NCBI GenBank assembly: GCA_003170295.1
Contig: PNAJ01000160.1
Coordinates: 1 to 64,000, forward strand
Length of the DNA: 64,000 nucleotides
Source: Bryobacterales bacterium
GTDB lineage: Bacteria > Acidobacteriota > Terriglobia > Bryobacterales > Bryobacteraceae
Direction: 5' to 3'
Positions 31,282 through 35,534 of the stretch are shown piece by piece. Below the pieces are notes generated by a model. The model was not told the DNA's origin. It made no database searches and worked only from the letters and a program-made list of their open reading frames with translations. The position numbers were made by a program, and so were the translations under genes. Position 1 is the first letter of the stretch, and each line of letters starts with the position of its first letter.

Positions 31282-31317
31282 CCAGTAGCCAGTAGTCGGC
31301 TATGATGTTGCTTATTG

Positions 31318-33759
31318 ATGGAAGCGCTGTTGTTGGATTTGAAGTTCGGTGCGCGGATACTGCTGCGGTCGCCTGCCATGACGCTCGCGGTGATTGTGGC
31401 GCTGGCTCTGGGGATCGGGGCCAATTCGGCGATGTTCAGCGTGGTGGACGCACTGCTGCTGAATCCTCTGAGATATCGCGATCCGGCGTCGCTCGCGATC
31501 GTGTGGGATAAAGACCCGCAGGCCGTGACTTGGAGCGCTTCGCCGGCAAATTTTATCGATTGGCGGAAGCAGTCGAAATCGATCGAGGAGTTCGCAGGGT
31601 GGACTCCGACGTCCTATGTTAGGACCGGCGTCGACCGGCCGGAACAGTTTTCCGGAGCGGCGGTAACGGCGAATTTCTTCCACTTGCTGGGCGTAAAACC
31701 GGCGCTGGGCCGCACGTTTCTTCCGGAGGAGGACGGCATCGAGGTTCCGGGGGCAGCGAGAAAGGTCGCGGTGATCAGCGATCGGATGTGGCGCGAGAAT
31801 CTGGGTGCGGATCCGAACGTGCTGGGTCTGCAACTGAAGCTGAATTCGGCATTGTATACGATTATTGGCGTGATGCCGCCTACGTTTCAATTTATTTCCC
31901 GGCCGCACCAGATATGGACTCCGGCGTCGTTGAATAAGCAGAATCGCGATTTTCATTCGCTTACGGTTGTCGCGCGATTGGCGAAGGGTGTTACGCGCGC
32001 GGGTGCTTCGGCGGAGATGGCGGGAATCGCGGGCGCGCTGGCGGAGGCTTATCCGAAGAGCAACAAGGGCTGGACGGTCGAGGTGGACGATTTTCAGGAG
32101 TGGCTGATCAATCGAAGCTTCAAAACGCGGCTACTGTTGCTGTTCGCAGCGGTGGGACTGGTGCTGCTGATTGCGTGTACGAACGTGGCGAGTCTGCTGC
32201 TGGCTCGATCGTCGGGGAGGAGCCGCGAGATTGCGGTGCGGTTGTCGTTGGGTGCGACGAGTGGCCGCGTGGTGCGTCAACTCTTGACGGAGAGCGTACT
32301 GCTATCGGTGATGGGCGGAGCGATGGGGCTGCTGCTCGCGTGGCAGTTGATTCTCCTGGCGCCGAAGTTCGTGCCTCCGAACGCGATTCCTGCGGCTGCG
32401 CCGATCGAGTTGAACATCGCGGTGGTGCTGTTTACGCTGGCGATCAGCATCGCGACGGGAGTGTTGTTCGGGCTCGCGCCGGCCTTGGCGGCGACCAAGC
32501 CGGATGTGCAGGAGACGCTGAAAGATTCTGCGAGAGGGACGACGGGAGGCCGCGGACGGCAGAGGTTCCGGCAGGCGATGGTGGCGGTGGAGGTCGCAGT
32601 GGCGCTGATGCTGGTGGCGAGCGCAGTGTTGATGATCGAGAGCCTGCGAACGTTGACGAGCACGGAGTTGGGGTTTAATCCGAAGAACGCGATGTCGCTG
32701 CGCTTGTTTCTTCCCGTGGCGAAATACGACGCAGTGCGCGCGCTCCAATTTCACCGGCAGGCTCTGCTACGCCTGGCGGGGCTGCCGGGTGTGAAGAGCG
32801 TGGCGCTGGGCACCAATTTGCCGCTTCAGAAAACATTGATGGGTGCGCCGTTCGATTTGGAAACGGAGTCGGCTCCGAGGGAGCAGGCGGAGAGGCCGGA
32901 CGTGAACTACATCACGGTGAGTCCGGCGTATTTTAGCGCGCTCGGGATCATGGTGAAGCGCGGGCGAGCATTCGAGGAGTCGGACAACGAAACCGCTCCG
33001 CCCGTGGCGATTGTGAACCAGGCGTTCGCGGATCGATATTCTCGCGGCGAGAATGTGGTGGGAAAACACATTCTGTTGGACCGGCCGAAGCTGCCGAGCG
33101 GGTTTGAGGATACGATTCACCCAGAGATCGTGGGGATTGTCGCGAATGTGAAGACGTCCGATCTGGCGGCTGCGGGCGATCCGATTCTTTATGTACCGCA
33201 TGCGCAGAATGTGTGGTCTCCGGCGGTGTATTTCACCATGCGATCGCAAATGGATCTTACAGGGTTGACGGCGGCGATCCGGCGGGAGTTGGCGACGCTC
33301 GACCCGGAGCAGCCGATCAGCCAGGTAGGATCGCTGGAACAGACGCTGGTGACGCGGTCGGCTGAGCCGAGGTTTCAGACGCAGTTGATGGGCGCGTTCG
33401 CGGCGCTGGCGCTGGTGCTGGCGGTGGTGGGGATTTACGGCGTGAACGCGTACGCGGTGTCGCAAAGACGGCATGAGATCGGCGTGAGGATGGCGCTGGG
33501 CGCTACGCCGGCGATCGTGCTGCGGGAGATGATCGGGCAAGGGATGAAGCTAACGGCGGCCGGGATCGCGATCGGGATTGGCGGGGCGCTGGCGATCGCG
33601 TCCTTGCTGAAGAGTGTGCTGGTGGGCGTGAGTGCGACCGATCCGGTGACGCTGGGCGGAGTGGCGCTGACGATCGCGATGGTGGCGGCGCTGGCTTGCT
33701 ATGTTCCCGCGAAGAGGGCGACGCGGATCGATCCGGCGATTGCGCTGCGGGGGGAGTGA
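31318..33759 (+). CDS. ADOP-type FtsX/MacB-like permease
   Basis: Inner-membrane permease of 813 aa, same architecture as the gene at 27368: N-terminal LLLDLKFGARILLRSPAMTLA, TM1, MacB-like periplasmic domain, middle TM bundle with LLARSSGRSREIAVRLSLGA, second periplasmic domain, C-terminal TM bundle with RRHEIGVRMALGATPAIVL and the typical ending PAKRATRIDPAIALRGE. ATG at 31318 preferred over a TTG one codon upstream. The upstream leader carries short repeats of TAGCCAG. Its last 150 bp are duplicated exactly at 34105-34257. No ATPase partner gene nearby. Confidence 0.9.
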   Translation: MEALLLDLKFGARILLRSPAMTLAVIVALALGIGANSAMFSVVDALLLNPLRYRDPASLAIVWDKDPQAVTWSASPANFIDWRKQSKSIEEFAGWTPTSYVRTGVDRPEQFSGAAVTANFFHLLGVKPALGRTFLPEEDGIEVPGAARKVAVISDRMWRENLGADPNVLGLQLKLNSALYTIIGVMPPTFQFISRPHQIWTPASLNKQNRDFHSLTVVARLAKGVTRAGASAEMAGIAGALAEAYPKSNKGWTVEVDDFQEWLINRSFKTRLLLLFAAVGLVLLIACTNVASLLLARSSGRSREIAVRLSLGATSGRVVRQLLTESVLLSVMGGAMGLLLAWQLILLAPKFVPPNAIPAAAPIELNIAVVLFTLAISIATGVLFGLAPALAATKPDVQETLKDSARGTTGGRGRQRFRQAMVAVEVAVALMLVASAVLMIESLRTLTSTELGFNPKNAMSLRLFLPVAKYDAVRALQFHRQALLRLAGLPGVKSVALGTNLPLQKTLMGAPFDLETESAPREQAERPDVNYITVSPAYFSALGIMVKRGRAFEESDNETAPPVAIVNQAFADRYSRGENVVGKHILLDRPKLPSGFEDTIHPEIVGIVANVKTSDLAAAGDPILYVPHAQNVWSPAVYFTMRSQMDLTGLTAAIRRELATLDPEQPISQVGSLEQTLVTRSAEPRFQTQLMGAFAALALVLAVVGIYGVNAYAVSQRRHEIGVRMALGATPAIVLREMIGQGMKLTAAGIAIGIGGALAIASLLKSVLVGVSATDPVTLGGVALTIAMVAALACYVPAKRATRIDPAIALRGE

Positions 33760-33761
33760 GG
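33609..33761. repeat. 153-bp direct repeat, copy 1 (3' end of the ADOP gene)
   Basis: Covers the last 50 codons, stop and two bases after the ADOP permease gene. By reading base by base it is identical to copy 2 at 34105-34257. The two copies flank the inverted-repeat element at 33773-34091. Confidence 0.9.
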
Positions 33762-33772
33762 AAGAAGGAAGC

Positions 33773-34091
33773 CAGCCTGACGTGACTCCTTCCCGATTCG
33801 CGCGAAACAAGCAGACTGCTCTGCCCCCTTCGTCATTTTCGGCCTTTTGCTCCGTCTTTAGGTGCCAGATCGTAATATCCTGTTTGGGAACCGTCCCGGA
33901 AGGGCAGACCATCACGGAGATCCGCAGCCACACTCCCGTTTCAACGCTGAATTTGCGGCTGGATGATAGGAAAAACCTGTAGGATTGTGTTTGCCGAGCT
34001 TGGTGAAGCATCGCCGATAAGCCGAAAACGGCGAAAGGGACAGAGCAGTCTGCTGGTTTCGTACAATTAAGCAAGGAGTCGCGTCAGGCTG
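33773..34091. mobile_element. 319-bp MITE-like element with long imperfect terminal inverted repeats
   Basis: The ends are CAGCCTGACG at 33773 and its inverse CGTCAGGCTG at 34082-34091. Inverted similarity extends about 60 bp inward, including AGCAGACTGCTCTG on the left and its inverse CAGAGCAGTCTGCT on the right. There is no coding capacity. The sequence differs in character from the flanking high-GC permease gene. Direct repeats of 153 bp flank it at 11 and 13 bp distance, far longer than a normal target duplication. Class unknown; a transposase would have to act in trans. Confidence 0.65.
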
Positions 34092-34104
34092 TCCCTGTGG
34101 CCCC

Positions 34105-34257
34105 GAAGAGTGTGCTGGTGGGCGTGAGTGCGACCGATCCGGTGACGCTGGGCGGAGTGGCGCTGACGATCGCGATGGTGGCGGCGCTGGCTTGCTATGT
34201 TCCCGCGAAGAGGGCGACGCGGATCGATCCGGCGATTGCGCTGCGGGGGGAGTGAGG
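34105..34257. repeat. 153-bp direct repeat, copy 2 (isolated ADOP 3' end)
   Basis: Exact copy of 33609-33761. It encodes only the last TM region and the ending ATRIDPAIALRGE followed by a stop, with no start, so it is a non-functional gene tail. The lack of any substitution implies a recent event or gene conversion, or an assembly artefact. Confidence 0.9.
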
Positions 34258-34303
34258 CAGATGTAGCCAGTGGCCAGACGGACATGGAAGGCGTGAACGA
34301 TTA

Positions 34304-35182
34304 TTATTCCTTGCGGCGCGGTGAGTGCCCGTCATTTGAGGCGCGCGCATCCTTGGCGACATGTGCTCTCCCGGTTTCATCCACGTCGAAGCTAAGCTCA
34401 TTACTAACGAGCGGGCGCGTCTCGTGAACGCCGCCACCGTAGCCTGCCAGAAACTCATATTCGCCGGGCGAGAGTTCGAAGCGCAGAGGTATCTGAATCG
34501 TTCCCCCAGGATCGAGGGTCACGCGCCTCGAGACGGCAGCTCCGGCTACTACGAATAGCTTGACGGTCCGTCCCTTTCCGTTCACAAGGCACGATCCTCC
34601 CCCGGGATACTCGTTCAGGAGATCGACATTGGTCCGGGTAAGAGCGGCATATGAGGGGCCGTCGCTGGGATCCCACGGGCATTCCAGTCCTTGCTTCTTG
34701 GACAACAGCGTGAGGCCAAGCAGGCTCAGGTCGATCTCGCGACTGGTGTGATCGTCGTTGCGCAGTTCCAAGATCAGCTCATCTCTACCGTCTGGCGGGA
34801 AGCTTGCCTGGACGCTCAGGCTTAAGCGCTGCACACTCGGGGGCGTTGCACGGTGCGATCCATCTGCTTCTTTAGCGGGTCCTAAGACCTGAGCGGGTCC
34901 TAAGACCTGGAGCTTCGTGATTAGAGCGTCACCCGGATTCATCGGCTGGTAGACTTCCTTCACGTCGATCAATACGGCTTGATTCTGGAAGGAGCGGAGG
35001 GACTCCTTCACCTTCTCCGAGATCTCCATGAGGTAAATACCGCTGTAGAGGTGGCATGAGCCCCACCGGTCGAAGATTACGACACCGTTGTACTTCCCAG
35101 GCCCCCTAATTCCGCCGAAAGCGATAGCGATGACCAGAAACAAGAGCAATACAGCGGCCTTCGGTGCTTTTCGAAGAGTCAT
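34304..35182 (-). CDS. Membrane-anchored or secreted protein of unknown function
   Basis: Protein of 292 aa. A hydrophobic N-terminus (AAVLLLFLVIAIAFGGI) is a signal anchor or signal peptide. The body is predicted beta-rich with SLSVQASFPPDGRDELILEL and PLRFELSPGEYEFLAGYGGG, an Ig-like or intermolecular-binding pattern. An 18-bp direct tandem repeat at 34874-34909 (AGCGGGTCCTAAGACCTG twice) encodes the doubled peptide VLGPAQ-VLGPAK, a recent in-frame slippage. Family not recognised. Confidence 0.65.
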   Translation of the reverse strand: MTLRKAPKAAVLLLFLVIAIAFGGIRGPGKYNGVVIFDRWGSCHLYSGIYLMEISEKVKESLRSFQNQAVLIDVKEVYQPMNPGDALITKLQVLGPAQVLGPAKEADGSHRATPPSVQRLSLSVQASFPPDGRDELILELRNDDHTSREIDLSLLGLTLLSKKQGLECPWDPSDGPSYAALTRTNVDLLNEYPGGGSCLVNGKGRTVKLFVVAGAAVSRRVTLDPGGTIQIPLRFELSPGEYEFLAGYGGGVHETRPLVSNELSFDVDETGRAHVAKDARASNDGHSPRRKE

Positions 35183-35194
35183 CGGCTCGATGAT

Positions 35195-35440
35195 CTATTG
35201 CCCCGCACTGGCGATCGGATTATCGCGGTAGTGGAGCGGAGGTTTTTGGAATCCGGCCGCGCGAAGTTCACTCGCGAGGAGCGCGGAGCTCTTGGTTTCC
35301 TTATAGCCGCCCTCGGCGAATTCCCAGATGCGGCGGAGCGTGCGTATCGACGTCGTCGCGGGTGGAAGAGTGGTCGGCGGCGGAGAGAATTGCGATGGAG
35401 AAAAGAACGAGACCAAAAGGGCGCATCGTGAGTCGATCAT
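35195..35440 (-). pseudogene. Truncated M20-type amidohydrolase remnant
   Basis: The 81-codon frame begins with a hydrophobic leader and then reads IRTLRRIWEFAEGGYKETKS and SALLASELRAAGF. This is the start of the catalytic domain of M20/M20D amidohydrolases (IW.FAE.GYQE.KSS..L...L...GF). After that the frame diverges into HYRDNPIASAGQ and stops, so about 80 percent of the enzyme, including the metal site, is missing. The 5' end of the remnant lies just before the tRNA gene. Confidence 0.6.
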
Positions 35441-35460
35441 AGTATGATGAAGAAGAATAC

Positions 35461-35534
35461 TGGGAGATCGTCTAATGGTAAGACTGCAGCCTCTGGAGCT
35501 GCGTATCGGGGTTCGAGTCCCTGTCTCCCAGCCA
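35461..35534 (+). tRNA. tRNA-Gln (anticodon CTG)
   Basis: 74 nt including an encoded CCA. Acceptor TGGGAGA pairs with TCTCCCA; D stem GTCT/AGAC; anticodon stem GCAGC/GCTGC around the loop CTCTGGA, whose bases 34-36 are CTG, reading CAG codons; T arm CGGGG-TTCGAGT-CCCTG. All stems are intact. Single isolated tRNA; such genes are frequent integration sites, but no integrase is seen here. Confidence 0.95.

Follow-up and report, generated by a model that had tools for sequence, protein, structure and literature searches.

A duplicated gene end surrounds an inverted-repeat element

The window analysed here, a 64,000-nt (64-kb) stretch of a Bryobacterales genome assembly, contains a gene for an ADOP-family duplicated permease of 814 amino acids (31315-33759, + strand), identified from its ORF, a TIGR03434 score of 894 bits (cut-off 622) and its MacB_PCD and FtsX domains. 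The 3′ end of this gene was originally predicted to be present twice, as an exact 153-bp duplication, and direct reading of both copies bore this out, 33609-33761 being identical to 34105-34257; a repeat search returned a direct repeat of 157 nt at 99 % (33609-33765 and 34105-34261). The left copy (33609-33761, +) comprises the last 151 bp of the ADOP gene plus 2 bp, is continuous with the rest of the gene and represents its true end. The right copy (34105-34257, +) runs on into the downstream DNA and has no element of its own. Between the copies lies, again as predicted, the 319-bp core of an imperfect inverted repeat, whose arms (33773-33843 and 34021-34091) are 71 nt long, 82 % complementary and divided by a spacer of 177 nt, with 11 and 13 bp separating them from the copies. 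The left-versus-right flank direct repeat of the window scores 154 against a maximum of 14 in 400 mismatched left/right flank pairs from other elements, so the duplication is not a chance similarity.

The left terminal inverted repeat of the element (33773-33843, +) has a degenerate outer end, reading AGCCAGCCTGACG in place of the GGGACAGCCTGACG of other copies. The interior follows at 33844-34020; a 366-nt query (33750-34115) has a relative at C107 of the same genome (G000), which aligns with query positions 24-352 at 82 %. In the right terminal inverted repeat (34021-34095, - strand; arm 34021-34091) the end CTGTCCC is intact and the minus strand reads GGGACAGCCTGACGCGACTCC at 34075-34095.

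The short sequences joining element and copies hint at what was duplicated. The DNA 3′ of the right copy reads CAGATGTAGCCAG-TGGCCAGACGG, and that 3′ of the left copy reads AAGAAGGAAGCCAG before passing into the element. The 11-bp left junction, AAGAAGGAAGC (33762-33772), together with the next bases resembles CAGATGTAGCCAG behind the right copy, a weak likeness that 897 of 20000 random 20-mers score equally high. After the CTGTCCC of the element come TG-TGGCC-CC and then the start of the second copy; the 9-bp right junction, TGTGGCCCC (34096-34104), thus holds GTGGCC, which is also found directly behind GTAGCCA after the right copy. GTGGCC occurs 19 times on the + strand of the window and is present at both the right junction and the native insertion point, making the right-hand hint fairly specific and leaving the left-hand one weak. 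Provided that both hints are genuine, a native stretch of about 172 bp across the insertion point would occur twice, and of its two copies only the first would hold the element; the junctions are compatible with a tandem duplication of this stretch.

A tRNA-Gln gene (35461-35534, +) follows the ADOP gene in relatives and served as the anchor of an empty-site comparison, for which 11 relative loci were fetched and 8 inspected, the tRNA-Gln not being found within the locus in 4 of the 8. The other four (G001, G005, G012 and G021) show a single ADOP end with tRNA-Gln close behind and no element in the stretch displayed, and from these single gene ends both the element and the second copy appear to be recent additions to the lineage of the window. 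In the window, about 1.2 kb (34258-35460) separates the right copy from tRNA-Gln, compared with about 0.1 kb in G001. This interval contains an ORF of 292 amino acids (34304-35182, - strand) with no Pfam match at E ≤ 0.001, inside which lies a perfect 18-bp tandem duplication, AGCGGGTCCTAAGACCTG (34874-34909).

Relationship of the element to TIRtrons

The same ends recur in the genome at C107, C135 (two elements), C81, C27, C112 and C148, and in changed form at C151, C168 and C79. The elements at C81 and C27, with 841 and 845 bp between their outer repeats, contain an uninterrupted tyrosine-transposase ORF between ends matching those of the window element. The C81 protein matches Y1_Tnp (PF01797) with 53.2 bits (cut-off 23), its sole Pfam match at E ≤ 0.001, and contains NHVH and YVEQNP as read in the ORF. 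A ‘REP-associated tyrosine transposase’ model gave 71.3 and 69.6 bits for the C81 and C27 proteins, both below its cut-off of 80, and an IS200 model reached only 22.8 bits on the transposase against a cut-off of 55. A PDB sequence search with the transposase returned a single match, an MHC class I chain (E 0.0036), which was taken as chance. No transposase gene is found among the ORFs of the window element, which is why we call it non-autonomous and TIRtron-like. As single-stranded DNA it folds strongly (z -5.6, 0 of 100 shuffles as good). Two Rfam matches below the gathering scores, to the snoRNA family sR14 (22.8 bits, gathering 38, E 9.7e-4) and the lncRNA family WT1-AS_4 (17.7 bits, gathering 60, E 0.65), were also set aside as chance. 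A scan for the exact element end returned one locus, with the same printed sequence as a locus of G179, a genome belonging to the bacterial family of the window.

Koribacter versatilis is an acidobacterium. It is among the examples of TIRtrons, elements served by a TIR-associated tyrosine transposase (TIRYT), given in the parts of Di Nocera et al. (2013, PMC3733652) available to us, where a GGGGWSAS motif in the inverted repeats and repeats lacking a gene are also described. The elements studied here share all of these features, with a Y1 transposase gene between terminal inverted repeats common to gene-bearing and gene-less copies and with GGGGACAG, which fits GGGGWSAS, in the inverted repeats at C27 (left), C81 (right), C135 and C79; the window element reads AGGGACAG at its right end and is degenerate at its left. 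NHVH and YVEQNP in the C81 protein match the HUH motif and Y---NP signature of class 2 in the accessible text of Quentin et al. (2018, PMC6006769), in which nearly all RAYT group 1 sequences are assigned to subclass 2.1 and a C-terminal helix-turn-helix extension is reported for that subclass. The transposase is probably of subclass 2.1, and the window element is a non-autonomous relative of TIRtrons, that is, of terminal inverted repeats served by a REP-associated-type tyrosine transposase. The element thereby belongs to an already described kind, whose mobility is putatively driven by its transposase. The family shares the Y1 domain (PF01797) with IS200/IS605, but members of that group are described, in the portion of the literature seen, as having no terminal inverted repeats, unlike the window element with its 71-nt repeats.

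Duplications across and beside other elements

Among up to 51 elements tested, those with flanks under 200 nt being skipped, a long across-element duplication adjoining the element was found in the window only. One other element (L199) scored 17, above the 14 of mismatched pairs, with a 20-nt repeat some 280 nt away from each end. A smaller case, C79 in the same genome, fell outside the tested set; here an exact repeat of 29 nt, or of about 35 nt if one gap is allowed, occurs on both sides of a single-ended relative, beside a short array. Imperfect edge duplications were also identified in this genome, at C107 (L027, 2969-3064) as a 48-bp tandem at 98 % made up of flank and the outer 23 nt of the element end, and at C81 as repeats of 39-42 nt at 88-97 %.

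These observations bear on two readings of the window. In the first, a staggered cut about 153-172 bp apart would have produced a long target-site duplication, as the order copy, element, copy and the closeness of the element to both copies would suggest. However, none of the other elements tested had a comparable duplication next to it, the copies are set off from the arms by an additional 11 and 13 bp, and in the part of Nunvar (2010) available IS200/IS605 members are said to make no larger target site duplications. Target-site duplication as a rule for the class, that is, a set length at most copies, was tested on the same up to 51 elements and dropped, with only the window standing out. 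Since duplications of the target site are no rule at this element class, and a tandem duplication of about 172 bp offers another reading of the junctions, the window is probably not a case of target-site duplication, and a cut of this kind seems to us very improbable.

The second reading is an assembly join, in which the end of an element-bearing contig was connected to an empty-allele contig starting 153 bp before the alleles part. The source assembly is a draft of 168 contigs, 82.9 % complete and probably derived from a metagenome, the copies are exactly identical, and 153 bp is near common short-read lengths; a join would moreover produce the succession of gene end, element, a few bp, a second gene end and empty flank, with the GTGGCC hint included. 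Yet the window contains no N, no second high-identity contig for the region appeared among the matches listed in the assembly, we know of no common assembler with a k-mer length of 153, and joins would hardly explain the imperfect edge duplications at C107 and C81. We consider a join unlikely, though a good deal less so than a staggered cut.

To place the edge duplications in a wider context we collected relatives of the C81 transposase, which were found at E ≤ 1e-15 in 103 of 237 genomes of the same bacterial family, and fetched 60 loci from a longer list. Inverted repeats around the transposase genes were located by inverted repeats alone and direct repeats were then scored, the in-family count resting on 46 of 62 loci (12 were reported without repeat, 1 was too short and 3 scored below 14). 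The measure used first gave scores of at least 12 at 22 of 90 junctions, which belong to 18 of the 46 elements, and at 0 of 269 stretches further out. By a junction-touching measure, from which L029 and L030 were left out as they had been read before the other junctions, a score of at least 10 was reached at 28 of 86 junctions (21 of 44 elements) and at 16 of 1020 control positions (Fisher p 1.5e-22; the control positions overlap, which makes them non-independent, and some genomes supply several of the elements). Junction-touching repeats are rarer outside the family but within the same phylum, where they were found at 12 of 82 junctions (9 of 41 elements) and at 19 of 978 control positions (p 8.8e-7), in a count drawn from 41 of 48 loci (7 reported without repeat; the 48 came from a longer list, and L246, of the window's own genus, was omitted beforehand). 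The scores were devised after junctions had been seen, and the junction-touching measure after the looser first measure, which has no touching rule, had given only 8 of 82 against 5 of 246 at scores of at least 12 outside the family. Of 22 ends in the window's own genome, hand-listed and already read, 12 score at least 10. Since arrays also occur on contigs of 6.18 Mb (L160) and 6.69 Mb (L208), we do not attribute them to fragmented assembly.

The target duplications made by DDE elements are usually short and of a fixed length. MITEs of DDE insertion sequences resemble the window element in being short, in having inverted repeats and in looking like deletion derivatives of a transposase-carrying element, but DDE insertion sequences from the same bacterial family showed edge arrays at 0 of 40 junctions (20 elements passing the repeat filter, from 50 loci). 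Going by these comparisons of junction sequence, edge duplication is a property of the TIRtron-like element class. The same contrast bears on a slippage duplication of the gene tail unrelated to the element, which would have landed in it later by chance. Tandem duplications do arise without elements, but here the element sits where the two copies meet, and edge duplications, enriched in this class, were absent from the 40 DDE junctions scored, which makes a coincidence of this sort very doubtful. The original suggestion of an unusual insertion or a capture of flanking DNA was thus upheld in kind, by a transposase-associated family whose junctions are enriched for flank and edge duplications and by C79, with the assembly artefact it had also named keeping the low probability given above.

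Structure of the edge arrays

Some arrays are ladders, in which one short word alternates with element-end pieces of differing length instead of one fixed unit being repeated. At L123 (G179) the word AAAAACC occurs ten times, nine of these being followed by a piece of 6-32 nt before the array passes into longer sequence; every piece is a prefix of the same sequence (GGTGACAGGCTACGTG...), in some cases with one to three other bases at its end. At L125 GCGCGAA occurs ten times, accompanied by GGA, GGGA, GGGGACA, GGGGACGGA, GGGGACAGGA and finally the full end, and the arrays at L126, L180 and L194 resemble these two. The word probably includes the outermost element bases in some families, so that only part of it need be host DNA, as with AAAAACC at two loci and CGAA before GGGGACAG at many ends in the window's own genome. 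We read the ladders as repeated failed copying across the junction, and their varied pieces would fit failed extension better than expansion of a fixed unit. Neither end of the window element has a short array beside it (scores 6 and 4).

Arrays seem to arise separately at each insertion rather than to move along with the element, given that the two C135 elements, about 1 kb apart and 79-92 % alike in aligned pieces, have different right-end words (GGTTAAA and GGTCGAA). Four single element ends fold no better than shuffles (z -1.4 to +0.9), and this ordinary folding weakens a simple picture of stalling at a hairpin. In the parts seen of the two TIRtron descriptions (PMC3733652, PMC6006769) many TIR elements are reported in dimers or clusters, with no mention of flank duplication or stuttered edge arrays, and the available text of the wider literature searched, including PMC2817692, PMC3686654, PMC3116915 and PMC8266576 besides these two, yielded no description of truncation-ladder edges or flank duplication at TIRtrons.

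A number of loci showed further features of arrays and insertion sites. L117 (G179:C45) and L123 (G179:C154) have long irregular arrays on AAAAACCGGTGACAGGCTACG..., with 19 and 10 words, adjoining elements with GGGACAGCC-type ends. Apparently independent insertions, each with its own repeated word, lie directly behind the terminator hairpin of the same gene at L172 (G207) and L229 (G203). Behind the same terminator G202 has both flanks of the G207 element but no element or repeated word; in G206 the left flank alone was matched, with no element there, and G203 has its own element at the site. The intergenic DNA is too diverged for base-level reading, and in an empty-site search for G219 the two flanks matched different genomes. 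Judging from their flanks, TIRtrons of family f43 (L252, L264, L265, L279 and L280) seem to lie between the same convergent genes in several genomes, in the manner of a hot spot.

A proposed model for the duplication in the window

The reading that we favour, at a probability of roughly 0.55, is an insertion behind the ADOP gene accompanied or followed by template-leaving DNA synthesis that copied a native stretch of about 172 bp twice, only one of the copies holding the element. It builds on the duplication itself, the family with its transposase, the single-copy relatives and the enrichment of edge duplications; the order of events, the template switching and any part played by the transposase are what we infer from them. 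A non-autonomous TIRtron-like element, with ends matching two transposase-carrying copies, would have inserted just behind the ADOP gene. During or after insertion the growing strand may have quit its template near the element edge and restarted upstream, so that the native DNA around the insertion point would be copied twice. The second copy would have no element if the strand had copied an empty sister, if it had skipped the folded element, or if a duplicated second element had later been lost. The same faulty synthesis with short jumps could give rise to the stuttered edge arrays of many relatives; of the edge duplications, that in the window is the longest.

In the last of these routes flank, element and flank would have been duplicated in tandem and the second element then cleanly lost, a course of events with a precedent in REPINs. 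In the available part of Bertels and Rainey (2011, PMC3116915) the units of tandem REPIN clusters consist of 5′ flank, REPIN and a shorter 3′ flank, and REPIN excisions were found in read data, which provides a precedent for each step. These flank-containing clusters are, in the sources seen, the closest precedent for the window, whose order corresponds to two such units minus one element. REPINs also resemble the window element in being non-autonomous, folding back on themselves and being linked to a RAYT. Unlike REPIN clusters, however, the window has a second copy without an element, and the arrays of relatives hold truncated element ends of varied length; the ends read GGGACAG or are degenerate, with no GTAG tagging of inverted REPs in a hairpin. 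Against the route, an intermediate holding both elements together with doubled flanks was not seen at the ADOP gene, the two C135 elements differ in their right-end words, and the right junction retains 2 extra bases (CC). We hold duplication followed by loss only tentatively, as one way in which the favoured template-leaving synthesis may have ended.

Implications

If template-leaving synthesis lies behind both the window and the ladders, TIRtrons might spread by a replicative, host-primed reaction in which long jumps duplicate host DNA as in the window, a proposal that we regard as speculative. A nicked host 3′ end would copy the element edge, fall off, return to the same short word and try again, and such retries would leave a ladder of units of word and truncated end until one copy ran through. 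Were this so, the ladders would be a genomic record of a RAYT-type transposase moving its elements, and TIRtron elements would locally generate tandem repeats and partial duplications of genes. Arrays of word and end piece are a footprint to be expected from a model of this kind and can be counted in any genome, and if the case in the window is real the same process would be able to double upwards of 150 bp of a host gene in a single step.
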